Numbered from the stretch's first letter, positions 1,165-32,832 are shown. The stretch: DNA of 36,137 nt from a virus (IMGVR_UViG_3300033182_000098:1-36137); one strand, 5' to 3'. Numbers and translations are program-made. Notes: a model not told the origin generated them from the letters alone.

Positions 1165-1410
1165 TTACTCTGCTTCTTCAACCTCTTCAGGTATCACCTC
1201 GTAGGTTCCATCCTGAAGGTTGACGTTAATCTTGCCATACTCATCCTCCAGTTGGACTTTGAGTTTGTCCTGTTCTTCTTGGATGTTAGCAAATGCGTGA
1301 AGCAATGCGTGCTTCTGTGTTTCTAGAAGACCAATGTCGTGCTTGATAGCATTCTTCTTGCCTTCTTGTTCTTGTAGCTGTTTAAGCTGTTCTTCTGTGA
1401 TTTTAGACAT
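1165..1410 (-). CDS. Small coiled-coil protein after tail fibre genes
   Basis: 81 residues. Most of the protein is one heptad-like helix (EEQLKQLQEQEGKKNAIKHD, then further Leu/Ile/Glu/Lys repeats to about residue 58), ending in an acidic tail (EEVEEAE). Similar short coiled-coil proteins occur behind fibre genes in marine phages. The function is unknown; fibre assembly or chaperoning is a guess from position. It is the last gene before a strong terminator. Confidence 0.75.
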   Translation of the reverse strand: MSKITEEQLKQLQEQEGKKNAIKHDIGLLETQKHALLHAFANIQEEQDKLKVQLEDEYGKINVNLQDGTYEVIPEEVEEAE

Positions 1411-1442
1411 AATAAACTAGTTTGCTAGCTAATATACGAAAA

Positions 1443-1802
1443 TTATTCCGCACTTGCTTCGCTTGCCACTTCGTCAGGTGGTATCTGTCTATTGCGTACC
1501 GTAGGTGCTACAATTTCAGAAATTTGATTGTCAAGGTTCGCCTGCATCTGTTCTATTTCAAATGTAGGTTCAATCCAAGCAATAACCTGCGATTGTGTTA
1601 AGTCATCAAAAGAAACGAAGCTAGCAGGGTCAGGGTCACTTACTGAAGCTACTCCAATAATGTGTGCTGAATTGCCATCTTCATCTTCTCCAATGTAAGA
1701 CCAATGCACATTGTAAACTACATCTGCAAGGTCAGTTTCCTCAATAGTCTTATTAGTATAAGTATCTACCGAGTTGATTCTAAAACGATAAGTGTTTGCC
1801 AT
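1443..1802 (-). CDS. Tail-associated protein of unknown function
   Basis: 119 residues. The N-terminal half reads as beta strands (YRFRINSVDTYTN, then ADVVYNVHWSYIGEDEDGN). The second half carries the pattern F-DLTQSQVIAWIEPTFEIEQM followed by a helix ending APTVRNRQIPP. This layout resembles small proteins found next to fibre genes in many marine phages, where they are annotated as hypothetical. No catalytic motif is seen. It probably belongs to the fibre or adhesin module. Confidence 0.7.
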   Translation of the reverse strand: MANTYRFRINSVDTYTNKTIEETDLADVVYNVHWSYIGEDEDGNSAHIIGVASVSDPDPASFVSFDDLTQSQVIAWIEPTFEIEQMQANLDNQISEIVAPTVRNRQIPPDEVASEASAE

Positions 1803-1826
1803 TTTTATATTGATTTAAATTATTTA

Positions 1827-2573
1827 CTATTGACTACCGCCACCTGGTGCTGGACCTGGTCCACCGCTACCTCCTGAACCACCGCCTGAACCTGCTGCTT
1901 GCGAAACAACGTAATCGTGTAATAAGTTGGCGGTTGAATAACAACTACCACTAATATACACATCAAAGTTAAGGCTTCTTGCCGAACCAGTATTGGTTGC
2001 TACATTTAAATATCTTGTTGTTGTACCTACGGTTGCGGTAAACGAAATTGTTTGACTACCGCTACCACCAGTTGTATCTGAACTAGTGCTTAATCCTGCC
2101 CAAGTTTGGTCTATTTCCATATAAATTGTAGCACCACTTCCAGGTGGTGTATAAGCTAAAACAAAATCAAATCTAAACGATTGACCTGCATTACTAGCCG
2201 ATAGCGTTGCCGTTGCAGGCGCACAAGCCGTATTGAAGTTTATCTTCATACACCCAAGTTCCCTATTGTGCTGATAGCCTCTAAATTCAGAAAGTGCATA
2301 AGGTGTGTCGTCATAATCTGAATTATCAGGTTGGTCGTAGTCAGGGTTATAAGGTCGTTCTACATAGAAAGGGTCTTGAAACCAACTGTTGTTTTTAGGT
2401 GGACAATACGATACACCTGAACCACCTGCATTACCGCCAATCATAATATCTTTCATTGATATTGGCGAAGTAGGTGTTGAACCGCTAGTATAACCATCTA
2501 TTCCGATTGTGTTATTCCATCGTTCTTTTGCTACACCTAGCATTGATATTTGTCCGCTACTTGGTACTGCCAT
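1827..2573 (-). CDS. Fibre/adhesin-like structural protein
   Basis: 248 residues. It starts MAVPSSGQISMLGVAKE and has SPISMKDI and YALSEFRGYQHN, a start-and-linker pattern I associate with phage tail fibre accessory proteins of flavobacterial phages. The C-terminal half is Ser/Thr/Gly-rich beta structure, with Cys pairs that could form a small beta-sandwich. It ends in a Gly/Ser/Pro-rich tail (GSGGGSGGSGGPGPAPGGGS). The start overlaps the end of the large fibre gene by 17 bases. Likely host-recognition module; the exact role is inferred. Confidence 0.65.
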   Translation of the reverse strand: MAVPSSGQISMLGVAKERWNNTIGIDGYTSGSTPTSPISMKDIMIGGNAGGSGVSYCPPKNNSWFQDPFYVERPYNPDYDQPDNSDYDDTPYALSEFRGYQHNRELGCMKINFNTACAPATATLSASNAGQSFRFDFVLAYTPPGSGATIYMEIDQTWAGLSTSSDTTGGSGSQTISFTATVGTTTRYLNVATNTGSARSLNFDVYISGSCYSTANLLHDYVVSQAAGSGGGSGGSGGPGPAPGGGSQ

Positions 2574-5500
2574 CTAATCTAGCTTTTAGTTCGTCAATCT
2601 GTTTTTGTTGTTCTTTGATAGCTTCAATAAGCAAAGGTACAATACGGTCATATTTAACTGTTTTAAAGTCGTGGTCTGTACCAGTCTTTTCAGTATAAGC
2701 CGTATTCATTGGCGCAGTCATAACTGCTTCAGGAAGCACCTTTTCAATTTCTTGTGCTAGTACACCTGCTTCGTGCATTGTGTTTGGGTGAAAGCCGTAT
2801 TCGCTTTCAATATCATCTACCCAATCGTAAGTTACACCGCTAATTTGCTTAACCTTATCAACCGCATTGTCAATAGGCTTGACATTTGTTTTAAGACGTT
2901 GGTCTGAAGCATAGGCAATAACATCACCAGTAACTCGCAGCGTTCCAGTAGTAGCACCTAATTCCATTTTAGCGGTTGCCGTAGCACCACCACCACCTGA
3001 ACCTCCAGTTTCCCATAACCATCCATAAGTAGATACCCCTTCCATTCTTGAACGCAATGCCCAAGATGAAACTGAAGATATACCACTAGGCGCAGTTAAG
3101 TTACCATTTGCACCACAACCAGTTGCAGTTGCAGGTGCCATATATACTTGCCAGTTGTGATAAGTAGTGTTATAGAAAGATATGCCTGATTTGTTGTTTA
3201 AATCCCTACGAAGGTTTATACCTGCCCTAATATCAGCACCATTTTGTAAAGTATGGTAATAAGCACCAGTATATTCTCCTATGTAGTTATAATTAGCAGC
3301 ATCAATCATTGTTGCGTTATTCTTAACCCAAAAATGTAGATTACCCCTTGCCCAAGAACCTGAAGTACCTGATACTTTTTTAGCTGCAATACCTGCCCAA
3401 GAAACAGTATTACCTGCACCTGAAGCTTCACGACCACCTAGTGCTATTTTAGCCCAAGTGTTATTTGCGCCATTGATATTGTGTACTAATAACCCAACGT
3501 CAGCTTCATCAACACCACCAGTAGAACCATCGTTTGTTCCTGCTATAATTTTAGGTCTGTGATAGTACGCTGAATCTGCATTGGAATAAGAATCATAAAA
3601 CTGTACACCATCGCCTGAAGTTGTAGCGTTTCCGTAACGACCAAAAGCACCCATACTTGTACCATCGCCTCTAATACTATAATAACTAGAACCGTTACTA
3701 TCTGCAATAACATTTAAAGCAATTTGACCAAATACATTTGAACTTGGCGCAATAGTAACCCAACCTATACCAGTACGGTTAGTGTTTACTAAAACTTCGG
3801 CAGTAGTTCTAACCCTACCTCCAACGTGAAGTGCTTGTTGTGGGCTTGTTTCATTAATACCAACCCCACCTGAATTTAGTGTCATCTGAATTGTAGCACC
3901 ATTACCATCACCTGCTAATCTTAAATCACCAGTAGAGTTAATGTACCCATCGCCTATAAATAACATTTGGTTAGGGTCAAACCCTAGCGTAGAACCAATC
4001 TTTAAATAAGCATTGGCAATAGCACTAGAAGTTCCTATTGTTCCGCCTCCACCTCCAATGGTAACATCTCCTCCTGAAACGTGAAGAAGGTCTGAAGGGT
4101 TTGACGTGCCGATTCCTACCGACCTTTCAAATATTGTTCTGTCAGTATCAATATAAAAGTTGCGTTGCCAAGAACCGCCACTTGAATTAACCCAAAAGGC
4201 AAGTCCGTTGGTGGTATTCATAGCATCAATAGCACCAATAGCATTGTTACCGCTAGTCCACCAAACCGAAGGGTTACCACCGTTACCATCAAAATTAACT
4301 ACTCGTTTAGTTCCAGTACCTGAAGCCGTAGCAAGGGTGTGGGTAAATGTAGTACCGCTTGGCGTTGAATCGTAAGTACCATCAGGCGAAGCGTAAAGGC
4401 TACCATTGATATTGGTGTTACCTACATTGGAAACAGAAAATAATCTATCACCATCAACTGCACCTTGCCAAATAGTAAAGTCGTCAAAATTATTTTCAGT
4501 ATCACCTGCGCCACCATCTGAATTAACTACAAAGTGGTGTCCACCTTTAGTATTGTATTCTAGCCAGTACCTTTGTGCTGAAGTGGTATATCCTTGACTT
4601 GGATAGTTTTGCGAACGAATAAAGTTTTCTGTGTTGCCTTGTGCGCCACTACGACTAAAGTAAACCGTATTGTTGGTGTATAGGTTGTCTAGTGTTAGGT
4701 TGTTTTCAATGAAAGCATTACCGCTACCGTTTACTCTAAACACTTCACCACTACCACCGTAACCTGAACCATTGTATAGGTTTTTGACAACGAAAGCACC
4801 ACCATCAGGTGAAGCATAAGTAATACCAAACTTACCTACCGTTCCGCCACCATCGTTTACTTCTATTGCAGCTAGTCCATTGGCGTTTTGCGACCAAGAA
4901 CCATTGTATCCAATATTGATAAAGTCATAATCACCACCACTTGCGGTATTGGTTTTATCAAAAATTAGTTGGTCTGAAACACGAACATTTGAACCTGCAA
5001 TAAAGTCTGCGTAAGAAGTAATATTACCACCACTACTAATTCTTAATGAATCAATATAAGCTGCATCTCGTCTAGTCTGAAATAAAATATCACCCCTTTC
5101 GCCACCACTTGTAACACCAGTCATTTGCGACATCATTCTAGCGTATAGAATATCTTGTGGTGTTGCAGCCGTATTACGACCATAAAACGCAAAAGAACCT
5201 ATATAATCATTGGCGGTATTTCTGTCTGAAGTAACAGACATAGAAGTAAAAGCAGAAGTTCTAACATCAATTTCTTCGTTGGGGTTAGTTGTGCCAACAC
5301 CAAGCACCCCATTAGTGATATAGGTTGTTCGGTATAATTGAATGTTTGAACTGTTAAAGTTAGCCGTAGGGTTTTGGTTGTGCGAAGTTCCGTTACCAAT
5401 TTGTACTGCGCCACCTGCATTGGTTACATAGAATGTTCCTCTATTACCTATGATACCATAACCACTTAATCTGGCTTCATTTGATGCTGGAGTAACATTA

Positions 5501-12242: not shown

Positions 12243-13264
12243 TTCTTCTTAACGCAATTAGGAACTCGCTTGCCATCTTTCATTTTCCATCCGTCTTGCT
12301 TGTAACCTTCCCAGCATAAGTCAACATCAACGCTTTCCAGTTCGTCCAATCCTCTTAACTTGGACTCTACCCAGTTTTTCATACTTTTTCCGCCCCAAAG
12401 CAGATACGATATAGTACCGCACGCCTCTGGCTTGGATGCATCGTAATAGGCTTCTGCCCTGCTCAGGTATGAATAAATGCGTTTTAAAGTTGGTAGGGTG
12501 AATTTCTCTTTTCTTGCGAGCTGCTGCGCTCTTACCTTGCCGACCTGAGTTGCGCATTTATTATTTACTTCTTTATTGCGTTTAATACCTAATTTAGCGT
12601 TGTTTGAGGCACTTTCTGGGTACCCACCATAAGATTCTAGCTCTACTTCCTCTTCAAGGGCAGATAATGCCTCTAAAAGAGCATATTCCGCTTGTAATTC
12701 CTCAAAGCAATCTGAGCAAAGCTCTTCTTCAACGTCTTCTTTAGGTCTATTAGAGTCGTCAGTAAAATAACCTTCAATAGAAAAGCCCTTAACACGACCT
12801 GTTTTAACAAATTCTTCCCAAACTTCTTCATTATTGACTTTTACAGAGACCATCCAAGTCCCTTTTGGCATATTTAAGTTATATAGTGCTGATTTGTCTT
12901 TCTTTTCGTCTTCTACAATCCAAGATTCGACCACAGACATACCTTTTAGCTGATATTCGTGTTCTAGAGTCGAATTATTCTGATTTCCTCTGCTTAAAAA
13001 CAGCTGAGAGGCCTTTCTGACGGTATCTTCACTAAAAAAGATGTAATATTCATCTCCAGACTCGTTTTTGCGGTAGATTTTCTTATCTGGAATGAGTGCT
13101 GGACCCATTAAGATACGTTTTTCGTTATTTACTTCCGCTAATTCTATCTTTTGTGCGCTTAACGCTACAAAGTCCTCTTCAATAGCAGGATTCTCTACTA
13201 TGGAGATGGCTTGGATGCCTGAATCTAGGCTATCCTCTTCTATAAATAGTTCAAAGACTTCCAT
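12239..13264 (-). CDS. Prohead serine protease (XkdF-like) with C-terminal extension
   Basis: 341 residues. The N-terminal 180 residues match XkdF-like prohead proteases: RILMGPALIPDKKIYRKN, TLEHEYQLKG (catalytic His region), VVESWIVEDEKKDKSALYN, PKGTWMVSVKVNNEEVW and VKGFSIEGYF (nucleophile Ser). A Cys/Glu-rich linker follows. The last ~130 residues carry a second domain (ASNNAKLGIKRNKEVNNKC, TQVGKVRAQQLARKE, EACGTISYLLWGGKSMKNWV) seen attached to head proteins in other phages. It cleaves scaffold and capsid arms during maturation. It lies after the tape measure gene, which is unusual. Confidence 0.85.
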   Translation of the reverse strand: MEVFELFIEEDSLDSGIQAISIVENPAIEEDFVALSAQKIELAEVNNEKRILMGPALIPDKKIYRKNESGDEYYIFFSEDTVRKASQLFLSRGNQNNSTLEHEYQLKGMSVVESWIVEDEKKDKSALYNLNMPKGTWMVSVKVNNEEVWEEFVKTGRVKGFSIEGYFTDDSNRPKEDVEEELCSDCFEELQAEYALLEALSALEEEVELESYGGYPESASNNAKLGIKRNKEVNNKCATQVGKVRAQQLARKEKFTLPTLKRIYSYLSRAEAYYDASKPEACGTISYLLWGGKSMKNWVESKLRGLDELESVDVDLCWEGYKQDGWKMKDGKRVPNCVKKK

Positions 13265-13294
13265 ATAAGGATAACTTAATAGTTAATATTCGTT

Positions 13295-15235
13295 TTAAAT
13301 TGACGCTCCTTCAACAACCTTACGGTCAAACTCTTGAGCTGTGCTTACGTCAGATGATACTACATAAGCTTTTACTGGTTTAGACTCTGCGCCAGCAATA
13401 GCAGCAGCTAGCTGATTTTGAGCCGAAGAACCAACTACATTGAAGGAAGGAGCTTGAACTCCACCAGCTCCAGCAACTCCTTGAGCCGTCAAGTTAGGAG
13501 TAGGCATAGCTTTTCCAACAAATTGCTGTTTAGAAATCATAGCTACATTAGCTAAACCTGCACCTATAACTGCAATCATACCTGCTATACGAGCAAAAGA
13601 ACCCCCTTTGGTATCACTAAGAACACCGGTAGCGGCAGAAAAAGTATCTACTACGGCCATAGCTATATTTACAGCTTTTTCTTGTTCAAAGCGTCTTTTG
13701 TTTATAGCGTTCTCTTTCTCTACTAACTGAGCTTCGTTTCTAGCTATCTCTTGATTAATTTTATCCCTTTCTTCTGCGGTTAACTTCTCATTAGACAGCC
13801 TCTTTTTAAGTTGGTCATTTAACCTATTTGTTCTATTCGTCTCTATAGCAATTTCTCTTTCGGCTTGAGCAGAGAAAACATCCCCCATAATAGCAAGGCC
13901 TTGTTGAGCGGTGTCTATTGCGGCTCTTATATTCTCCTCACTTACACCAAAAGTATCGACAAAGAAGTTTCTTTCTCCTTGTGAGGCCTGTCTTTTTTGA
14001 AACTCATTAGTAACCGCTTTACCAACCTTCTCAACTTCTCCAGCGGCCCATTTTTGCGCCTCTGTTTGTTCAGGGCCGTCAATTAAGTCTTTTAAAGATA
14101 GCTTCCCCTTTTTCCCTATAACAAGGTCTACCTCTACACTGAGTCTGCTTTTAGCAGTCTGAAGTTCATCAAGAGTTGATTTTAACTCTTTAATCTGGTC
14201 GTTGTAATTTTTTACTTGGTCAGTAGTGGTTGCCGTACTATCTCTTAGCTTTTCTAATTCACTTATTTGCTTCTTGATAGCGTTAATAGTTCCATCTACA
14301 AGCTCTTCTGTATCTCCACTCCCGAAAATTGTTTCTACAAGGCCAATATCTTTAAACAACTCTTGCAGCCTATTTTTTGATAATTGAGACTCTTCTCTAA
14401 TCTCATTAAGCCTTTCTCTTATAGTTTCAACTTGAGCTTTAAGTATATCTACAGGACCACCTCCAACTTCTTGTTGAGCTTTTATTAAGTCAGAAAGAAC
14501 TCCTTTTGACTGATTTAAAAGGTCAAGCCTTTCTTTTTCTAGTCTTGCTATATCATTTGCAAACAATTCAGCAGTAGCCCTTGCAATAGCTAGCCTCTGT
14601 TGAGCTGCTATAAACTCATCTATAGATTGCGTTGTTGGGTCAAATCCTGATTTTTTCAGAGCTTTTAATGCTGCTGTTTGTTGTTCAATAGACGTTGTAT
14701 TATCTCTTACTATATTTGCTAACAACTCAAGCTTTATTACATCAGTATTTAACTTAGACAGCCTATCATTAAAATCTTCTGTTTCTTTATTCGCTTCCTT
14801 ACTCCTCTGAGCGTAAATTGTGACCGCTGCGGTAATTGCTTGAAAAGCAATAAGAATACCTCCCGGACCAAGAATTTGTTGTTTAAGTAATATTAGAGCA
14901 TTTTTAACGCCCTTAGCATTAGCTACAAGTGCAGCAAATAAAGTACCTAACTGCGAAATGTTATTTGATACTGCTACCAATCCAAAAGGTAAATCCGATA
15001 TAGTTCTACCTAATTCGAATGCAGCAGCACCAGCTAAACCAGCAGACCTAGCTTGGTCTTCCTGTAACTTATTAAGCTCTTTTGACTGTTTGCCGTATCT
15101 TTTACCAGCTTCAGATGCTTTATCGTATTGCTTGGCTAAATCGCCAAAGCTTTTGACGACTCTACCAGTCTCATCTGTTATTTTACCTGTCTTGAGGTCT
15201 AGCTCAAACAGTATGGTCTTATTTATGTCTGCCAT
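13295..15235 (-). CDS. Tail tape measure protein
   Basis: 646 residues. Coiled coil at the N-terminus (QYDKASEAGKRYGKQSKELN), then Gly/Ala-rich hydrophobic segments at about 65-150 (AGLAGAAAFELGRTISDLPF, ILIAFQAITAAVTIYAQR), long heptad helices between 160 and 540, and a hydrophobic region near 545-590 (VNIAMAVVDTFSAATGVLS). This is the usual tape measure layout. At about 1.5 angstrom per residue it predicts a tail near 100 nm. The protein sets tail length and is ejected with the DNA. Confidence 0.8.
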   Translation of the reverse strand: MADINKTILFELDLKTGKITDETGRVVKSFGDLAKQYDKASEAGKRYGKQSKELNKLQEDQARSAGLAGAAAFELGRTISDLPFGLVAVSNNISQLGTLFAALVANAKGVKNALILLKQQILGPGGILIAFQAITAAVTIYAQRSKEANKETEDFNDRLSKLNTDVIKLELLANIVRDNTTSIEQQTAALKALKKSGFDPTTQSIDEFIAAQQRLAIARATAELFANDIARLEKERLDLLNQSKGVLSDLIKAQQEVGGGPVDILKAQVETIRERLNEIREESQLSKNRLQELFKDIGLVETIFGSGDTEELVDGTINAIKKQISELEKLRDSTATTTDQVKNYNDQIKELKSTLDELQTAKSRLSVEVDLVIGKKGKLSLKDLIDGPEQTEAQKWAAGEVEKVGKAVTNEFQKRQASQGERNFFVDTFGVSEENIRAAIDTAQQGLAIMGDVFSAQAEREIAIETNRTNRLNDQLKKRLSNEKLTAEERDKINQEIARNEAQLVEKENAINKRRFEQEKAVNIAMAVVDTFSAATGVLSDTKGGSFARIAGMIAVIGAGLANVAMISKQQFVGKAMPTPNLTAQGVAGAGGVQAPSFNVVGSSAQNQLAAAIAGAESKPVKAYVVSSDVSTAQEFDRKVVEGASI

Positions 15236-19332: not shown

Positions 19333-20119
19333 TTATAAGCGTCTTTTATTCTCTTGTTTTCTAAGTCGGTTTTCTCCTTTTCAAAGGACAGCCAGACTAG
19401 GCATTTATGGATGTTAAGCTTTGTAATTTCATCAAATCTTGTGACATCTCCTCCAGCGAGTGCATAAAGTGATTGATACCAACCCCATTTTGCTCCAAAA
19501 ATCTGTTCTCTACTTGCAAACGCTCCTCTGGCTTCATCTCCTTCAGAGAAGAGGCTATCGTATGTTTTGACAATTTCATCCCTAAACGATAAAAAAAAAG
19601 CCTAGCACCGATAGCTACGTTGACAGGAGCATACTTCATATAGCCAGCATACTTATCTGTACCTTGATATTCCTCTATATCATAGAACTCTCCCTTGTGC
19701 TTAGTAATAGGTCTGTATAGAACAGCCATTGCCTTGTGCATATCCTGAAAGTCATTGATATAGTTGTCCAAATCAAAGTACTCACCAGAAGTTAAGTTTT
19801 GCAGGTCTGGATGCAATCCAAACTCTACTTCAACTCCGTTACTGCCTCTGAACCAGAACCGCTTTACAAGTGGCGTCTCTTCAGATAAACACTCTGCTAA
19901 TTTTACTAAAACACTATCAAAGGTGCTTATTGGTAGCTTATAGCTCTCCTTTAGCTCAAGCCCACAGAATATATCAAGAGCTTTAAGATTCAAGAAGTCC
20001 ACCGCTTCTTCTGCATCCTTGTCAATAGAGTCTAATACCTTGATGTACCTCTGGTACTGCTCAAGGGTAATGTCCGACAGACTTGCTGGGACTCTAATCT
20101 GTAACTTTACTTTACTCAT
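19329..20119 (-). CDS. Tail assembly chaperone, -1 frameshift product (GT-like)
   Basis: Ribosomes that slip -1 on the T9 run at 19591-19599 leave the 0 frame after ARLFF and enter a frame that stays open for 87 more residues to the TGA at 19329-19331. The extension reads LSFRDEIVKTYDSLFSEG, FGAKWGWYQSLYALAGGD, VTRFDEITKLNIHKCLVWLS, FEKEKTDLENKRIKDAYK. The WGWYQSLYALAGGD...DEITKLNIH...LSFEKEK pattern is what I know from tail assembly chaperones of Bacteroidetes phages. The fusion is about 263 residues from ATG 20119 (272 from 20146). It would recruit the tape measure, as lambda gpGT does. Alternative: a homopolymer indel in the assembly. Confidence 0.75.
19397..20119 (-). CDS. Tail assembly chaperone, 0-frame product (G-like)
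   Basis: 240 residues from ATG 20119 (MSKVKLQIRVPASLSDITLE); an upstream ATG at 20146 would add 9 residues but looks less natural. The body contains QYQRYIKVLDSIDKDAEEAV, LGLHPDLQNLTSGEYFDLDN (read as EFGLHPDLQ...), VLYRPITKHKGEFYD and APVNVAIGARLFFYRLG. After the T9 run the 0 frame continues for about 64 residues ending MHSLEEMSQDLMKLQSLTSI, which also looks like a selected protein sequence. So about 190 bases appear to be read in two frames. First gene of the virion operon. Confidence 0.75.
   Translation of the reverse strand: MSKVKLQIRVPASLSDITLEQYQRYIKVLDSIDKDAEEAVDFLNLKALDIFCGLELKESYKLPISTFDSVLVKLAECLSEETPLVKRFWFRGSNGVEVEFGLHPDLQNLTSGEYFDLDNYINDFQDMHKAMAVLYRPITKHKGEFYDIEEYQGTDKYAGYMKYAPVNVAIGARLFFYRLGMKLSKHTIASSLKEMKPEERLQVENRFLEQNGVGINHFMHSLEEMSQDLMKLQSLTSINA
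19591..19599 (-). other. Programmed -1 frameshift slippery run (T9)
   Basis: Minus-strand RNA reads C-UUUUUUUUU-A in the 0 frame as CUU UUU UUU UAU. This contains the canonical U UUU UUU heptamer. Slipping back one base continues UUA UCG UUU AGG into the extended chaperone frame. It lies at codons 183-186 counted from 20146. Confidence 0.75.
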
Positions 20120-20184
20120 ATTCGTTTTACTCGTAGTCCATTTCATTGCCTACAAATAGATAACCTTTATTTGCCGTTTTGTAC

Positions 20185-20214: not shown

Positions 20215-20434
20215 AATTATTGATGAACACTATTGGTGTCTTTTGGTTATCTTTATGTAATAAATCTTCCCTGCAATAGTAATTGCTAAAACACGCCAGA
20301 GTGAGCCGAGTGGGTAAGGCTTGGGAGTTTGGTCAACGATGACCCAGTTATCTCAATAATGTCTGGTAGGAGAGACTCTTCCGCAAAACGTGACAAGCGT
20401 TATAAGGGAGAGGTGTATAAAGTTATCAACAGTT

Positions 20435-20884
20435 ATGAAGCATACTAAAGCAAGAAGAGTAGGTAAGAAGAAGTTTAACCAGATACTTAATGACGAAATC
20501 AACAAGATAGAAGCGCACAGACCCAACAGGGTCAAGCGCAACGGCAAGGAAATCAAGCCAGAACTACAGCAGGAGTACATACAAGACAAAGAAGAACTGT
20601 CTGCCACAGCAAAACCTTCTACTAAACCAATCAGCAAGTCTGGAACACTCAAAGTAGCTTACTTCAATAAACCTTGCATTTACTTACTGTATAAAGCCAA
20701 CAAGATAGTCTATGTAGGTCAAACAGAATGTCTGGCTCGCAGAATAGCCGAACACTTAAACACAGACAAAGACTTCGACTCCTTCGTTGTTCACTCTTTC
20801 ATAGACAGTCAGTACATCAGACTAAAGAAAGAAGAAATACTCATCCGCAAGTACAAGCCTAAGTACAACACTACTCATAAGTGA
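20435..20884 (+). CDS. GIY-YIG endonuclease (homing-type), only plus-strand gene
   Basis: 149 residues from ATG 20435 (MKHTKARRVGKKKFNQILND); a GTG at 20390 could add 15 residues. The N-terminal 70 residues are highly basic and helical. From about residue 75 comes a GIY-YIG nuclease domain: KPCIYLLYKANKIVYVGQTE gives the variant IYLL-x9-VYVG pair, followed by the catalytic Arg of LARRIAEHL and the Glu/Lys of RLKKEEILIRKYKPKYNTTH. Stand-alone GIY-YIG enzymes in phages are usually homing endonucleases that spread themselves or nearby DNA. Opposite strand to all other genes, at the edge of the G+C-rich island and directly followed by a tandem repeat. Confidence 0.85.
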   Translation: MKHTKARRVGKKKFNQILNDEINKIEAHRPNRVKRNGKEIKPELQQEYIQDKEELSATAKPSTKPISKSGTLKVAYFNKPCIYLLYKANKIVYVGQTECLARRIAEHLNTDKDFDSFVVHSFIDSQYIRLKKEEILIRKYKPKYNTTHK

Positions 20885-20982
20885 TTGAAATCATCGAAAT
20901 GGGTTACTAACACTCCACCGACCTCGATTTACGTTGAATTCATCGAAATGAGTTACTAACACTAGGCCGACCTCGATTTACG
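20885..20982. repeat. Tandem direct repeat, 2 x 49 bp
   Basis: Two 49-bp units (20885-20933 and 20934-20982) share 44 of 49 positions, including TTACTAACACT and CGACCTCGATTTACG. The array begins on the base after the stop codon of the GIY-YIG gene and ends where the CCWGG-rich DNA begins. It may be a scar of insertion, a nuclease target or a binding site. No coding frame is credible here. Confidence 0.9.
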
Positions 20983-21299
20983 TTCCCACTACCTGGAGCG
21001 GTCCCCAGGACGACCCAGAAGGACCACCAGGACCACCAGGACCACCAGGGCGACCAGGGCAACCACCAGGACCAGGACGAACCCAGAACCTGGAGCAATT
21101 GTGAAGGCCCCCCAGGCCTGAACCTGGAGCCTGGTAAATTGGCTTGAGATTGTTACCCCCAGGACTTATCCCAATACTAAGCCCCAGGAACTTAGAAAAA
21201 ACCTAGGACCTTATTTAAGGCACTTTTTAGGCCTTCTCCTGGACGTTCTCCTGGTCCTTGGTATAAGTACCCCAGTTAATAGGAGAAACGCCCGCAAAT
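20983..21299. other. G+C-rich, CCWGG-dense non-coding stretch
   Basis: About 317 bases without a credible gene. CCAGG or CCTGG occurs about 16 times here. Around 21026-21052 the 9-base unit GGACCACCA is repeated, which in one plus frame reads like collagen (Gly-Pro-Pro), but that frame has no start codon. The same CCWGG density continues through the following genes, so it acts at the DNA level and is not a protein effect. Confidence 0.7.
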
Positions 21300-21338
21300 A
21301 AAAAAACCTAGTAACCAGGGCGGGTCCCAGTCACTAGG
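21300..21338 (-). terminator. Rho-independent terminator (distal of two)
   Basis: Minus-strand RNA forms a 13-bp stem CCTAGTGACTGGG/CCTGGTTACTAGG (with three G-U pairs) and a short loop, followed by seven U. The G-U pairs form only in the minus-strand transcript, which fixes its direction. Second terminator after the metallopeptidase gene. Confidence 0.85.
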
Positions 21339-21347
21339 TAAAGGACA

Positions 21348-21377
21348 AAAATAAACCCCCACGTTTCCGCAGGGGTT
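21348..21377 (-). terminator. Rho-independent terminator (proximal of two)
   Basis: Minus-strand stem AACCCCTGCG/CGTGGGGGTT (10 pairs, two G-U) closed by a GAAA tetraloop, followed by TATTTTTG. Located 25 bases after the stop of the metallopeptidase gene. Confidence 0.85.
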
Positions 21378-21402
21378 CGAGTGCCTCCAGGAGGTCCAGG
21401 GA

Positions 21403-22374
21403 TTAGATTTCCCAGGAGTTCACATCGTCCAGGGTATAAGCCCCGCAACTGGAGCAGTAGTGGCCCCACGCGTCCTCCAACATCTTAAGGCCCCCGCACT
21501 TATCGCAGGACTTAGGTTCGGCCTCCTCCTCTGGTGCGTCCGTTGACCAGTTCGCAGGCGTGAGCCCGTTCCAGTAGTACCCACCATAAACGGGCGTGTA
21601 CTGGGCGCGCTTGTGCGTGTGCTTGTACTTATTAAGGCCCAGGGCCTGGATTGCCTCCAGGTTGAACCTCAACGTCGCCTCCAGTTCGCGCACGTCTATA
21701 AACTCCCCGCTTGTGTGCGGGTCGTAATAACTGCAAGCAATATTGAGTGCGCTAATATTAAGCCCGCGGGTGGCCAACTTATAAACGTCCGTTAACCCTC
21801 CGTTATCACACCAGGCGCGCCCGTACTTTGGGACCAGGTGTTGGATAACGTCCTGGAACTCCTGGGACGCTACCTCCAGAGAACAGATTGTACGCGCTAA
21901 GTCAACCGACCCCCTGCGGTCGTTTTGTAGCAAATAACCCACGTCCTGGAACCAGTCCAGGGAGCAGGCCCCAGAACCTTCGCACCCTACCTCCTCATCA
22001 ACGAAAAAAACCGCCTTCGCCTGGTTAAGGTGCGCCAATACCTGGACCGCAATATAAATACCGCACTTATCGTCCCCGCCAATACCTGTAAACTGCATTT
22101 TTACGGGATTGACCGCAAACGCTTTACCGCCCGCCTCGAGTACCTGGTACTGGTCCTCTGGGAGAATATCGTGTACGGAGTCCAGGTGCGCAACTGCGCA
22201 GGGGTGGGATTGCCCCTCCTGGAGGTGTCCTTTGGTTGCGAAAACGTTTCCGAACTGGTCGACCTCAACCGAGGCCCCCGCGCGTTCGCATAAGTCGATA
22301 ACTAATAGTTGCATATCGGTTTGCTCATAAGATACCGACTGAGTATTAAGTATTTTAAAAAGTGTCGAGTTCAT
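21403..22374 (-). CDS. M20/M42-type zinc metallopeptidase with C-terminal zinc ribbon
   Basis: 323 residues. The di-zinc peptidase ligand pattern is complete: VAHLDSVHD (H63, D65), TGIGGDDKCGIYIAV (bridging D101), FVDEEVGCEGSG (catalytic E127, ligand E128), LLQNDRRGSVD (D152) and YYDPHTSGEFIDV (H220). A C-terminal zinc ribbon follows at about 290-312 (CDKCGG...YCSSCGAY). These enzymes hydrolyse peptides or other amide bonds in the cytoplasm. The substrate cannot be told. It is the last gene of the island operon, 4 bases after the membrane protein gene. Such peptidases occur sporadically in large phages. Base use is unlike the rest of the genome. Confidence 0.85.
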   Translation of the reverse strand: MNSTLFKILNTQSVSYEQTDMQLLVIDLCERAGASVEVDQFGNVFATKGHLQEGQSHPCAVAHLDSVHDILPEDQYQVLEAGGKAFAVNPVKMQFTGIGGDDKCGIYIAVQVLAHLNQAKAVFFVDEEVGCEGSGACSLDWFQDVGYLLQNDRRGSVDLARTICSLEVASQEFQDVIQHLVPKYGRAWCDNGGLTDVYKLATRGLNISALNIACSYYDPHTSGEFIDVRELEATLRFNLEAIQALGLNKYKHTHKRAQYTPVYGGYYWNGLTPANWSTDAPEEEAEPKSCDKCGGLKMLEDAWGHYCSSCGAYTLDDVNSWEI

Positions 22375-22378
22375 AAGA

Positions 22379-22600
22379 TTATAAATTAAGGTTTTTAATA
22401 AGATTAACCGCGTAACGTACCGCGACCAGTTCCAGGATTAGAACTGGGGTCCCCAGGGCGAACCTAAGGACGTTTTTAATAGCGTCCGAGGTGTTGGGAT
22501 TGGAAACCAGTTCCAGGCACTCCAGGAGGCCGTAAACAACCGACCCGCTCAGGTAGGTAAAAATTAGGATTGATAAGATTGTAAAAATTGAACGTTTCAT
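22379..22600 (-). CDS. Small two-pass membrane protein of the island
   Basis: 73 residues. Hydrophobic segments at about 5-27 (IFTILSILIFTYLSGSVVYG) and 46-66 (FALGTPVLILELVAVRYAV) joined by a short polar loop, with a basic start (MKRS). It lies between the peptidase and the 398-residue gene in the same direction, with gaps of 4 and 23 bases. Not recognised; a holin is possible by shape, but the gene is far from the lysis cassette. Confidence 0.65.
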   Translation of the reverse strand: MKRSIFTILSILIFTYLSGSVVYGLLECLELVSNPNTSDAIKNVLRFALGTPVLILELVAVRYAVNLIKNLNL

Positions 22601-22623
22601 ATTGAATAAATTAAGATTAGTAA

Positions 22624-23820
22624 TTAGCCCCAGATTTGGTCCGCGTCGCCTCCAGTATTGCGCAACTCGTACGCCTGGGACCCGTCGAACTCCACTAGGT
22701 CGCGCTTGTTAGTAATAAAGCCCCCTTCATCGTCACTCCAGGAGTAAAAACAGAAGGTGTCCATATATGGAACCTCCTCATCATAAATTGCTCCCAGAAG
22801 GTCGCCCACCTCAATTTTAAACGTTGCGGTTGTATGCTCCCCGTCAGGTTGGACCCAGTCGAACCGCTCCGCGTAACTCTGGAACTGCTTATAAATAACG
22901 CCCTGGGCCTGGGCCTCCTTTTTAACTCGTTGGATTAGGTGGTCATTCGTATAAATGCGGTCCAGAACCTTAGTTTCTCGAATAGTGGTCCACTCCAGGG
23001 CGCGCCCCAGGAGTTCGCCCGCCTCGTTCTCCCAATACCAGGCGCGAACGTTTCCGCTTGATTGTAAAGCCTCGTAAAAGTGTCCTTTATTACGCATACA
23101 AGAATCAAGGAGCGTTCCCGAGTTCTCCGCCACGTCCTCGCGGTTATATAACCACTCCAGGTCCTGGGTATACTGGATATTTAAGGGAGCGTTAACCGCC
23201 TTAATTTCGTTCACTATTTTCTCCAGTTCCTGGTCCGTTGCCTCGATACCCACGCAGTCCAGGATATAACGCACCGCGCGTCCTATTTTCATTTCCTGGT
23301 AGTTGCCCAGGTAGTCCGCGCCCGTTGCCTTATCAACTAGGGCGGGCTTGTTTCCTGGCAGAAACTTTGCCGTTTCCTGGTTATCAAAAATGAACTCCGC
23401 GGGCGTGGTTGGCGTGGCCAACTCAAAACCGCTCTTATACCCCCAGGCCGAAACGTGGTCCGCACTATTGAACTGGAGGGGCATACTGCGCTCAATTGCG
23501 CTTGTTAATAGGTCGCGGCTCGAACCCTTAACCAGGGCGCGCAGGTTTCCAGTTCTGGACCAACCCACCAGGCGAACTCCACGGGCGGGATAAGTATCCG
23601 TCCTCATAACTAAGCCGTTGGAGTTCTTACGAGTGTTGACCCACTGGGCCACGTTCGCTCCTTTGCCGTTGGTGTACTTAACCAACTGGAGGTCAGAAAT
23701 ACGGACGCGCACCTGGTCGTTGCCCCACCCCCAGGATAACGAAACGAGGTCGTTTCCCTGGTCCTGGAGTGCCTGGATTAGCGTTTCCTGGTAGTCGAAA
23801 AAATCTACTTTTTTGCTCAT
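22624..23820 (-). CDS. Phage protein of unknown function, first gene of the island
   Basis: 398 residues. The C-terminal half contains a pattern I recall from uncharacterised proteins of several large phages: NSGTLLDSCMRNKGHFYEAL, VRAWYWENEAGELLGRALEW and ETKVLDRIYTNDHLIQRVKK. The N-terminal half has WGWGNDQVRVRISDLQLVKY and two basic Arg-rich stretches. No known catalytic motif or membrane segment is visible. Its co-occurrence with the M20-type peptidase in one operon suggests a shared task. About 25 CCWGG sites fall in this gene. Confidence 0.7.
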   Translation of the reverse strand: MSKKVDFFDYQETLIQALQDQGNDLVSLSWGWGNDQVRVRISDLQLVKYTNGKGANVAQWVNTRKNSNGLVMRTDTYPARGVRLVGWSRTGNLRALVKGSSRDLLTSAIERSMPLQFNSADHVSAWGYKSGFELATPTTPAEFIFDNQETAKFLPGNKPALVDKATGADYLGNYQEMKIGRAVRYILDCVGIEATDQELEKIVNEIKAVNAPLNIQYTQDLEWLYNREDVAENSGTLLDSCMRNKGHFYEALQSSGNVRAWYWENEAGELLGRALEWTTIRETKVLDRIYTNDHLIQRVKKEAQAQGVIYKQFQSYAERFDWVQPDGEHTTATFKIEVGDLLGAIYDEEVPYMDTFCFYSWSDDEGGFITNKRDLVEFDGSQAYELRNTGGDADQIWG

Positions 23821-24049
23821 AACTAATTGATTTTAAGATAGTTAAACGTTAAACAATACGGGCGGTTCCTCCGCTCGTTGAAACGAATATAGGGCCTTTA
23901 AATAACTTATATATATAAGCCAGATTGAAGGATTCACAAAGAAATTGCCGATTTATTGAAAAAAATGCAATACATTTGCAAAATGGGACCAGAAAATGAA
24001 ATATTAGCAACGAAAAACGCGGTTTTCTTGAGAATATCGCAAAAACGCT
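23821..24049 (-). promoter_or_regulatory. Leader/promoter region of the island operon
   Basis: Non-coding, and AT-rich compared with both sides. On the minus strand a TTTG about 19 bases upstream of a TATATATATAAG run (around 23907-23933) could be a promoter for the 398-residue gene. There is also a GAGCGG/CCGC small hairpin near 23857-23873 and the dyad TGCAA/TTGCA at 23967-23980. All are tentative. Confidence 0.3.
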
Positions 24050-24235
24050 CTGCTTATATGAACGCAACGCCCGCGCATACGTCACGCGCGCACCTGGACC
24101 CGCGTTCGTATCTCGCGCACATACGCCCGCACCTGGGCGCGTACGCATACGCCCGCACGCCTGCGCCTGGGCGCGCACCTGCGCACACGCATACACGCGC
24201 GCATACGCGAATAAGTAAAAGAATTGACACCCGCA
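24050..24235. other. CGC-rich low-complexity tract with alternating purine/pyrimidine runs
   Basis: About 180 bases built from GCGC, ACGC, GCATACGC and CACCTGGGCGCG motifs. Positions 24180-24209 alternate purine and pyrimidine without a break for 30 bases, and 24137-24152 does so nearly as long; such DNA can adopt the Z form under negative supercoiling. Several overlapping frames are open here only because stop codons are scarce in such sequence; I do not accept any as a gene. Confidence 0.8.
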
Positions 24236-24240
24236 AACGA

Positions 24241-24287
24241 TTTCCGATAGTTTCCGATATTTTTTATCAACAGGCCTTAACGCCTGT
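24241..24287. promoter_or_regulatory. Origin-like cluster: TTTCCGATA repeats, DnaA-box-like site, inverted repeat
   Basis: TTTCCGATA occurs twice, 10 bp apart (24241-24249, 24251-24259). It is followed by TTATCAACA (24264-24272), one base off the DnaA box TTATNCACA. An inverted repeat ACAGGC/GCCTGT (24270-24275, 24282-24287) follows. The phage also encodes a DnaA domain IV-like protein. A replication origin or regulator site is an inference. Confidence 0.4.
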
Positions 24288-24318
24288 CAACGCAAGCAAA
24301 AATCGCAAATTTTGGGGG

Positions 24319-24396
24319 TCCTATATTAAAGAGGGGGGGTCCTATATTAAAGAGGAACCCTCCTGCATTAAAGAGCAACCGTCCTGCATTAAAGAG
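24319..24396. repeat. Iterons: four 15-bp cores at 21-bp period
   Basis: TCCTATATTAAAGAG at 24319 and 24340, TCCTGCATTAAAGAG at 24361 and 24382, each 21 bp apart. Two more cores lie at 24493-24505 and 24508-24520, the second within the dyad GGGTC/GACCC and covering the stop codon of the 88-residue gene. The first two share one core variant (TAT) and the next two another (TGC). Exact 21-bp phasing suggests a protein bound to one face of the helix. Confidence 0.85.
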
Positions 24397-24401
24397 GAAA
24401 T

Positions 24402-24436
24402 AAAAAAAGCTGGCTACTTAACTTCACCAGCTTTTA
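24402..24436 (-). terminator. Terminator of the terminase operon (possibly bidirectional)
   Basis: Nine-base stem AAAAGCTGG/CCAGCTTTT (24405-24413, 24427-24435) with a 13-base loop. The minus-strand transcript continues TTTTTTTATTT. It lies about 75 bases beyond the stop of the 88-residue gene, with iterons on both sides. The plus-strand copy is followed by CTTTTAATT and could also act. Confidence 0.8.
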
Positions 24437-24492
24437 ATTATAAGAAATAGACAGTTCAAAGATACAAAAAGGATATCAAACATACAACACCC

Positions 24493-24520
24493 TCCTGCAT
24501 TAAAGGGTCCTATATTAAAG
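24493..24520. repeat. Iteron pair at the end of the terminase operon
   Basis: TCCTGCATTAAAG (24493-24505) and TCCTATATTAAAG (24508-24520), the same two core variants as in the array at 24319-24396, here 15 bp apart. The second copy contains the stop codon (TAG on the minus strand) of the 88-residue gene. Confidence 0.8.
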
Positions 24521-24776
24521 ACCCAGTTGCAACAAAGTCTCTGTGATTTATCTCACCTAATTTTATGAAGTGGTCAAGAGCTAGCACTCTGAACATTAGT
24601 GGCATTCTATTTAGATAGATGCCTGCGTCATCGTGTGTCTCTACTGGCAAGTATAGTCTTCTTGCTGTTCTTGTTTCATATTCTAATACCTTGAAGAAGT
24701 CAAGTACGTCTTCGTGCTTTACTCCAAGTACATCTGCTAATTCTCTGCTAGTTCTAGCCGCTAATAATTTTTCCAT
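24510..24776 (-). CDS. Small Rha-like regulatory protein, tentative
   Basis: 88 residues. The N-terminal part TSRELADVLGVKHEDVLDFF resembles the first helix pair of Rha/antirepressor-type phage regulators (SREIAE..GK.H..V pattern), where it binds DNA or partner proteins. The rest (LYLPVETHDDAGIYLNRMPL) is not clear, and the protein is much shorter than a full Rha. It follows terL with 2 bases between and ends in an iteron. It could be an antirepressor remnant or a terminase accessory. Confidence 0.5.
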   Translation of the reverse strand: MEKLLAARTSRELADVLGVKHEDVLDFFKVLEYETRTARRLYLPVETHDDAGIYLNRMPLMFRVLALDHFIKLGEINHRDFVATGSLI

Positions 24777-24778
24777 TG

Positions 24779-25990
24779 CTATCTGATTACATACCTGCCT
24801 AAACTTCTGCCTTGTACCAAGTATTGCAGGGCATACCTGATGGCATCTAAAAAGTGATTAAAGTTATCTATAGGCTTTGCATTACGCTCCTGCCATATAT
24901 AATTGTTTAGCTCTCTGATTATACCGTGAGAACCTTTGTCTACTACTATATCATAGTCCTGCATTAAAGCAATACCAGACAATATAGAACCAGACTTCTT
25001 TATGGTTGGCCTAATGTTTAAGTCCATAGACTTCAGCTCCGATATCAAACGAGGCTCCGAGTTATCACAGACTATCAAATCTATATTACAGAACTGCTTA
25101 TTCTTTCTAGCTATCTCTGAAGTAGTTAAGTTCTTCTGTCCGTAACATTCTCTAACCCACATCGTCTTACTATCATTATCTATGCTGATTTGCACCAGCG
25201 TTGTTAAGTCAGTAGAGAAACCAAAATCCTGCCCAAAGCAGGTAAGCTCCGTTTGCTGGTAGTCACCTACCTTCCATCGCTTATAGATAGTTCCTTCTGC
25301 CTTACTTAACCATCCACCAAGAATAGCGTGTAAGTATTTATCTGGACGCTTCTGCTTCATATCTAATACCTGCTCCAAGAAAGACTCTGATAGATTCTCC
25401 TTGTTGTCCATATAGGTAGTATGGATATAGCTGGCATTGCCTTCCTTACCATTCCACCCTTCAGGTACACCGACATTCTGGAACCATCTCTGATAAATCC
25501 AATGCTCCTTAGTGGTTGGGTTTAGAATAAGAATACATCTATTCTGTCTATCCTGCACCCTGACCGACAGGTCAATCTTATTAAACGTATCCTCGTCTAT
25601 AAGCTCTTCTGCCTCATCGAGTACAAAGGTAGTAATTCCATTTAAGGATTTCAAGGCTGCGGTCTGATTTCCTGATGAAGTTCTAATACCCTTGAAGATA
25701 ATAGAGTTCCTAGTAGTTAGGTTGATTATCTCATCCTTAGTAATACGGAAGTCTTCCTGTACACCCATAAGCTCAATCTTCTCTACGAACTCTGGGATAA
25801 TAGAAGTCTGCGCTGAGGTCATTGTATAACGGCTAAACAGTATCTTATGTCCTTCCTCGTAGGTTAGGTTCAATAAGAATACTGCTACACCGAAAGACTT
25901 ACCAGACCCTCGACCACCAGTAATAACAAAGTACCTGCTATCGTCTTTAAATAGAGGTAGGTACCTTTCATTCAGTTGTACTTGACTCAT
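24779..25990 (-). CDS. terL: Terminase large subunit
   Basis: 403 residues. ATPase: Walker A TGGRGSGKS (24-32), Walker B TTFVLDEAEEL (D125, E126), coupling motif ILILNPTT (153-160). RNase H-like nuclease: GQDFGFSTD (D255), LIVCDNSEP (D309) and HFLDAIRYALQYL (D382). This is the PBSX/Terminase_3-like type. It pumps DNA through the portal and cuts it. It overlaps terS by 23 bases. The sequence around 24956-24969 (minus strand, codons for ALMQDY) is 14 bases identical to an iteron in the array downstream. Confidence 0.95.
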   Translation of the reverse strand: MSQVQLNERYLPLFKDDSRYFVITGGRGSGKSFGVAVFLLNLTYEEGHKILFSRYTMTSAQTSIIPEFVEKIELMGVQEDFRITKDEIINLTTRNSIIFKGIRTSSGNQTAALKSLNGITTFVLDEAEELIDEDTFNKIDLSVRVQDRQNRCILILNPTTKEHWIYQRWFQNVGVPEGWNGKEGNASYIHTTYMDNKENLSESFLEQVLDMKQKRPDKYLHAILGGWLSKAEGTIYKRWKVGDYQQTELTCFGQDFGFSTDLTTLVQISIDNDSKTMWVRECYGQKNLTTSEIARKNKQFCNIDLIVCDNSEPRLISELKSMDLNIRPTIKKSGSILSGIALMQDYDIVVDKGSHGIIRELNNYIWQERNAKPIDNFNHFLDAIRYALQYLVQGRSLGRYVIR

Positions 25991-32106: not shown

Positions 32107-32160
32107 TATTGTTAGTTAAAAAGAGCCTTAGACCCTTTTGTTAGTTAATTACTTCTTGCA

Positions 32161-32802
32161 TTAAAATAGTCTTTGTTGTGCTTTGTGTTGCTCTAATCGT
32201 TTCATAGCTGCATCGTAGTAGTCTTTGTCTAATTCACAAGCTGTTAATTCGAATCCTAAATTATGACAAGCTATTGCAATACTTCCTGAGCCTAAGTGCG
32301 TGTCTAATATCTTATCACCTTCTTTAGCGTAATTCATAAGTAGCCACTCATATAGCTTTACGGGTTTCTGTGTGGGGTGTATTCTATGCTCTTTGTTTTT
32401 CATATCGTGCTGAATCATCCCGTGCCAAGCTATATCTACAAAATCTATCTTATTAAGCCAAGATAACCAAGCTAACTCACCTTGACTGTATGTAGGCATA
32501 GTTACTTGTTTGTGCCAATAAAGCATACCTCCCTGTAGATTAAAAAAATTTGCTCCCCATACTATCTGTCTTTTACTTACTCTTTTTAACTCAGCAAAAT
32601 ACTCGTCAGAAGGTATTGCACTATCCCACTCTTGATTACCATAATCTTTACTTAATCCTGCTGATTTTTTACTTTGTAATTTTTTAGCACTATTTTTTTT
32701 ATCTGCATCTATACCATAAGGAGGGTCAACTATTGCAAGGTCGAAGTAGTTATCCTCGTATCTTGCCATTAGTTCCATATTGTCCTCGTTAGTAATTTTC
32801 AT
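32161..32802 (-). CDS. DNA methyltransferase, beta class (N6-A/N4-C)
   Basis: 213 residues. Motif IV DPPYG at 26-30, then HPTQKPVKLYEWLL (142-155), then motif I variant LDTHLGSGSIAIACHNLGFE (167-186): motif order IV...I is beta class. There is almost no room for a target-recognition domain, so the site may be short. It methylates DNA with SAM, likely to protect phage DNA from host restriction or to mark it. No cognate restriction enzyme is present. It shares a short intergenic region with the HNH cassette. Confidence 0.9.
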   Translation of the reverse strand: MKITNEDNMELMARYEDNYFDLAIVDPPYGIDADKKNSAKKLQSKKSAGLSKDYGNQEWDSAIPSDEYFAELKRVSKRQIVWGANFFNLQGGMLYWHKQVTMPTYSQGELAWLSWLNKIDFVDIAWHGMIQHDMKNKEHRIHPTQKPVKLYEWLLMNYAKEGDKILDTHLGSGSIAIACHNLGFELTACELDKDYYDAAMKRLEQHKAQQRLF

Positions 32803-32832
32803 ATTTCAAAATCAAGGGGCCGAAGCCCCTTG
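32801..32832 (-). terminator. Rho-independent terminator after the HNH gene
   Basis: Eight-base stem CAAGGGGC/GCCCCTTG (32813-32820, 32825-32832) with loop CGAA. The minus-strand transcript continues ATTTTG. It lies 2 bases after the HNH stop. The sequence ATCAAGGGGCC here (32811-32821) also occurs on the other side of the HNH gene. Confidence 0.75.

Follow-up and report, generated by a model that had tools for sequence, protein, structure and literature searches.

Within a virus record of 36,137 bases (the window in the following) lies a G+C-rich island (20,990–24,235; 51.8 % GC) that is saturated with the short word CCWGG, which raises the question whether this word serves a function at the locus, was brought there with foreign DNA, or merely reflects a faulty assembly.

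CCWGG saturation and gene content of the island

The island contains 66 CCWGG by exact count, compared to 7.0 predicted from base composition, in good agreement with an earlier note that had estimated ~65 sites in 3.2 kb and an about eight-fold excess. Outside the island (~32 kb) only 5 CCWGG are present (Table 1) where composition predicts ~28–30, i.e., even fewer than the about ten supposed before. The island differs in its word usage from the remaining genome, as the note had held. In a 4.2-kb stretch covering most of the island (L002), 55 CCWGG were found versus 8.2 ± 2.7 in dinucleotide-preserving shuffles, with none of 200 shuffles reaching 55. The best two-fold-degenerate palindromic 5-mer attained a z of 21.6 in the island, the top value being 8.9 among 610 background segments of 3.2 kb (other fetched DNA, mostly from phages).

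Coding and non-coding parts alike are affected. The density is highest in the 3' non-coding part (45 per kb), where the cluster consists in part of a 9-bp quasi-tandem repeat (21,020–21,074), and amounts to 16.5 per kb in the peptidase gene, 20 per kb in the gene for the 398-aa protein and 7 per kb in the 5' non-coding part. At the two codon offsets that hold nearly all sites of the two long genes, CCWGG exceeds synonymous-codon shuffles about three-fold (6 versus 2.1 and 33 versus 10.5; third offset, 1 versus 0.5). Therefore, the excess is a DNA-level effect, as previously claimed, and pure codon usage is ruled out as its source. A search of Rfam for structured RNAs within the island yielded no match. 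The CCWGG saturation is hence a real and striking anomaly; the functions proposed for it are not supported (see below).

Table 1 Coordinates of the island, its borders and flanking genes in the window
Feature	Position	Strand	Basis or remark
CCWGG sites outside the island	1843, 1855, 2140, 6092, 10794		
Conserved gene for a 249-aa protein in tail-region position, downstream of the slot	19397–20146	-	Homologues downstream of relatives' slots
GIY-YIG nuclease gene, an insertion just beyond the cassette border	20390–20884	+	Pfam PF01541
Pair of 49-bp direct repeats marking the downstream slot border	20885–20984		Tandem repeat, 90 % matches
3' non-coding part of the cassette	20985–21402	-	19 CCWGG in 418 bases, including the 9-bp quasi-tandem repeat
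323-aa M42/M20-like metallopeptidase	21403–22374	-	16 CCWGG; Pfam PF05343, PHROG 4191
73-aa hydrophobic protein	22379–22600	-	Translation and comparison
398-aa protein, weakly GNAT-like in residues 211–388	22624–23820	-	24 CCWGG; model, relatives
5' non-coding part with CG-rich alternating tract (~24,064–24,215)	23821–24235		3 CCWGG; sequence, counts
Repeat units of 21 bp containing CTCTTTAATATAG / CTCTTTAATGCAG at the upstream slot border	24297–24521		Repeats
88-aa conserved gene between terminase and slot	24510–24776	-	Homologues in L001, L003, L005–L007
Terminase large subunit, conserved backbone upstream of the slot	24779–25990	-	Pfam PF04466, E 1e-30

The island encodes three proteins: (i) a predicted metallopeptidase matching its Pfam family just over the cut-off and the PHROG peptidase family with an E-value of 3e-47, (ii) a small hydrophobic protein, probably residing in the membrane, and (iii) a 398-aa protein without Pfam match. 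The AlphaFold2 model of the latter (pLDDT 83) suggests a weak resemblance to GNAT acetyltransferases (best Foldseek E 0.04; VIA-align Z up to 7.1, rmsd 3.8 with 107 aligned positions across residues 211–333). A small hydrophobic gene lies between the genes for the 398-aa protein and the peptidase in the window, and precedes the former in the related contigs L001 (1,874–2,089) and L003 (7,797–7,994). Cellulophaga phages as well as huge phages encode relatives of the 398-aa protein; five of the huge phages (LR756501–LR756504 and LR745206; 634–735 kb) carry them at 3–7 places per genome. In phi38:1 and Calle_1, both Cellulophaga phages, the peptidase and the 398-aa protein have homologues encoded by neighbouring genes, and this gene pair displays the GC content and words of its own genome without any saturation, which rules out that the word bias is a property of the gene family.

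A fixed slot with exchangeable cassettes

The sharp composition borders of the island could be taken to indicate an assembly chimera, a possibility which the earlier note itself had raised. However, contig L001 (IMGVR_UViG_3300024581_003121; 4,904 bases) independently presents the same order of terminase, 88-aa gene, island and 49-bp repeat. Its island shares ~82 % DNA identity with that of the window, the two long proteins having counterparts there with 89 and 91 % aa identity, and contains 57 CCWGG, with a comparable density in the 3' non-coding part even though the sequence there is partly unalignable with the window. Since L001 carries the island with the same junctions, misassembly is excluded, and with five further contigs holding homologous cassettes at the same place its residual probability is negligible.

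Comparison was extended to 34 contigs with related terminases, plus more that were found via the downstream gene. In all relatives spanning the region, the slot is located between the terminase/88-aa gene and the 249-aa gene. A peptidase/398-aa cassette homologous to that of the window is present in L001 and L003 to L007, whereas the slot is filled with GP88-family genes in L018 and L030 (by Pfam) as well as L017 and L136 (by sequence likeness), and with other genes in L008 and L015. The terminase genes of the window and L003 are 97 % identical at the DNA level and diverge at 8.6 % of four-fold sites, but aa identity of the cassette proteins is as low as ~52 % (peptidase) and 34 % (398-aa protein), indicating that the cassette was swapped as a unit. 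Judged from these alignments, the island is an exchangeable accessory cassette, fixed in its place and differing in allele or content between close relatives of a phage family that is marine and probably flavobacterial.

The borders of the slot coincide with repeats, as the earlier note had stated, i.e., the 49-bp pair downstream and the 21-bp units upstream. Elements related to the 49-bp repeat are found at the equivalent site in L001, L003, L004, L005, L007, L008, L014, L018, L030 and L136. The homing-type nuclease gene, to which the border had likewise been assigned, is situated just outside: it falls into an alignment gap (20,257–20,884) against L003, L005, L006 and L007, and the cassettes of L003 to L007 fill the same place without it. 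Thus, the nuclease is not what defines the border. At the upstream border, most members of the family contain CTCTTTAANATAG arrays (L012, L013, L014, L017, L018, L020, L030 and L136), several of them in two clusters; members with two arrays apparently hold two cassettes, and the arrays may represent promoters, operators or exchange sites. GC-rich hairpins are visible at the cassette besides the border arrays. A GC-rich alternating (CG/CA) tract adjoins the border array in the window, L136 (~5,150–5,240) and L015 (13,751–14,000), i.e., in phages with differing cassette genes.

Two mirror-image word dialects

Two types with opposite word preferences are found among the homologous cassettes. In type A (window and L001), the abundant CCWGG (~7 expected in either case) is accompanied by a lack of AGCT (0 and 1, respectively; 13 expected) and near absence of CAGC and GCNGC, the window cassette being devoid of both AGCT and CAGC. 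In type B (L003, L005 and L007), AGCT is present 51–53 times (12 expected) and CAGC and GCNGC are frequent, while CCWGG, CGCG and GCGC occur 0–1 times each (L003: one CCWGG, no CGCG or GCGC). The low CCWGG count of 0–1 applies to all five homologous cassettes from L003 to L007, and the cassette of L006, like those of L003, L005 and L007, differs in dialect from that of the window. GATC and CCGG are almost wholly missing from both dialects. Profiles of all 4-mers correlate at 0.90 within A and 0.86 within B, but only at 0.00–0.07 between A and B; compared to the backbones, values are –0.08 to –0.25 for A and about +0.35 for B. Hence B resembles the backbones, whereas A does not.

When protein sequence and codon usage are kept constant, both dialects have the same leading context word, namely CCAG/CTGG (z 10.3 and 9.3), for which the backbone genes tested show no enrichment. 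CCAG is extended mainly by G or T in A, and by C or A in B. Thus, CCWGG represents one lineage's form of a common CCAG bias. Third codon positions within CCWGG are more conserved than those of the same codons elsewhere (0.86 versus 0.65, both directions pooled; p = 0.036, stratified one-way permutation), implying that the words were maintained while the type-A cassettes diverged (~40 % at four-fold sites). This maintenance could have taken place in a donor population or in the present location.

Slots with other contents are likewise peculiar in their words. That of L136 is GC-rich and AGCT-rich, those of L017, L018 and L030 are rich in CCGG/GGCC, and that of L015 is rich in GCGC. Of 19 relatives, 16 have their strongest palindrome window within the slot, compared to an expectation of 6.5; the count includes some near-duplicate contigs, and the slot is itself delimited by its foreign cargo. 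Thus, the dialect tracks slot and lineage rather than genes. The CCGG- and GGCC-rich stretches of the GP88-type cassettes extend over 12,751–14,250 (L018), 13,501–14,500 (L017) and 1,250–3,500 (L030), and the remainder of L017 and L018 lacks CCGG. A general rule that slot words are palindromes avoided by the backbone was discarded, since the backbones do not avoid AGCT, and CCCC, CAGC and CCAG are likewise favoured in slots.

In the window outside 20,390–24,500, GATC and CATG are absent (~116 of each expected over the other 32 kb), CGCG is missing (49 expected) and CCGG is nearly so, a strong avoidance of the kind left by restriction. A gene for a DPPY-type DNA methylase, with relatives in many flavobacterial phages, is located at 32,145–32,814 and missing at the same place in L003 and L007. 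Modification of CCWGG by this methylase was rejected, as the DPPY motif points to an enzyme probably acting on adenine.

Origin of the dialect

On balance, it appears probable that the island is an exchangeable accessory cassette whose own DNA-level dialect was acquired from another gene pool, rather than a CCWGG device. The cassette occupies the repeat-bounded slot of the phage family and is passed on as a whole between phages, as the comparison of relatives shows, most likely by homologous recombination in the conserved flanks. Each cassette lineage carries its own oligonucleotide dialect across genes and spacers, that of the window extending CCAG/CTGG by G to CCWGG at the exclusion of AGCT, CAGC and GCNGC, and that of the relatives extending CCAG by C or A and favouring AGCT at the exclusion of CCWGG, CGCG and GCGC. 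The dialect probably arrived together with the cassette, out of a gene pool in which other pressures on words prevail, conceivably differing restriction avoidance together with context-dependent mutation or codon-context bias. The suggestion of the earlier note that CCWGG reflects the word bias of a donor genome fits these data, but a donor with such a dialect was not found: neither the type-A proteins in IMG/VR nor the peptidase profile in genome contigs led to one, the island DNA had no match among annotated phages, and these protein, profile and DNA searches brought up neither a phage nor a bacterium whose whole genome is written in dialect A. Furthermore, 16–45 CCWGG per kb are hard to imagine across a whole donor genome, and dialect B, seemingly resident in the family, goes beyond its backbones in word bias as well.

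The excess of dialect B over its backbones and the similar leaning of the L136 slot with its other genes suggest that something acts on the slot itself. The iterated word (CCWGG, or AGCT in the other lineage) could accordingly have been selected in place as target of a protein that binds, modifies or recombines DNA at the slot and might serve, e.g., in marking, regulation or exchange of the cassette. Its extreme density, highest in non-coding DNA, the conserved third codon positions, the two alleles with mirror-image words and the frequent location of the top palindrome window in the slot are all compatible with such selection. It is nevertheless unlikely, since the word common to both dialects is the non-palindromic CCAG, L004 has the genes without any saturated palindrome, other slots favour CCCC, CAGC or CGGC rather than palindromes alone, and the cassette proteins are enzyme-like (peptidase, weakly GNAT-like) and not DNA-binding-like. 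A reading in which a lineage-specific recognition word works on the slot, e.g., as allele-specific marks that steer exchange or protect the region and are mirrored in competing alleles, is to be rated as decidedly improbable. The roles for CCWGG considered in the earlier note, i.e., chi-like, methylation or packaging signal, are unlikely as well: the word is not conserved at the locus across related phages, being practically absent from the cassettes of L003 to L007, and the dialects share CCAG instead, which argues against a CCWGG-specific signal.

Mutational processes and avoidance account for the data even less. Very-short-patch repair or methylation of the Dcm/Vsr type, turning CTWGG into CCWGG, with a cognate process for AGCT in the other lineage, would agree with the shortage of CTWGG/CCWAG in A (7 versus 13.7 expected; z –2.1 against synonymous shuffles) and its surplus of AACT/AGTT (63 versus 44), as well as with the surplus of AGCT (82 versus 49) and shortage of AACT/AGTT (16 versus 30) in B. 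However, CTAG is about as frequent as in synonymous shuffles (5 versus 5.7; z –0.4), gains and losses of neighbouring words are not limited to C–T transitions, a Pfam scan of 30 window proteins (a subset of the ORFs of a possibly incomplete record) revealed no cytosine-5 methylase or Vsr family, and the process would have to spare the backbone, rendering it highly unlikely. Mere release from restriction avoidance, by which the backbone shuns CCWGG (5 of 30 expected) and CGCG (0 of 49) and the cassette does not, would yield ~7 CCWGG and not 66, leaving the nine-fold excess beyond reach; since type B is moreover saturated with AGCT, a word that the backbone does not avoid, this explanation has very little probability.

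Acquisition of the dialect with an exchangeable cassette is therefore preferred here, and the near-identical phages with sister cassettes in opposite dialects constitute a clean natural pair for short-word usage, bearing on whether host restriction, mutation context or selection shapes short words. The case also cautions against taking a methylation-type motif to be functional just because it is dense in a metagenomic island. A literature search on over-represented palindromes in phages yielded nothing pertinent. The locus may be viewed against several known systems. With the accessory (moron-type) cassettes in hypervariable slots of tailed phages, it shares the fixed place, variable genes, foreign composition and exchange between close relatives, but differs by allele-specific short-word saturation in genes and spacers and by border arrays recurring in most relatives. 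The adjacent homologues in phi38:1 and Calle_1 correspond in gene content, but not in base composition and words. As in case of HIP1 (8 bases compared to the 5 of CCWGG) and other highly iterated palindromes of bacterial genomes, a short palindrome greatly exceeds its expected number in genes and spacers alike, yet in the island it is confined to one cassette rather than genome-wide and the sister allele has another word. Over-representation of CCWGG associated with Dcm methylation and Vsr repair in Escherichia coli concerns the same word, whereas the excess in the island is far stronger and local, without CTAG depletion beyond codon usage or such enzymes among the scanned proteins.
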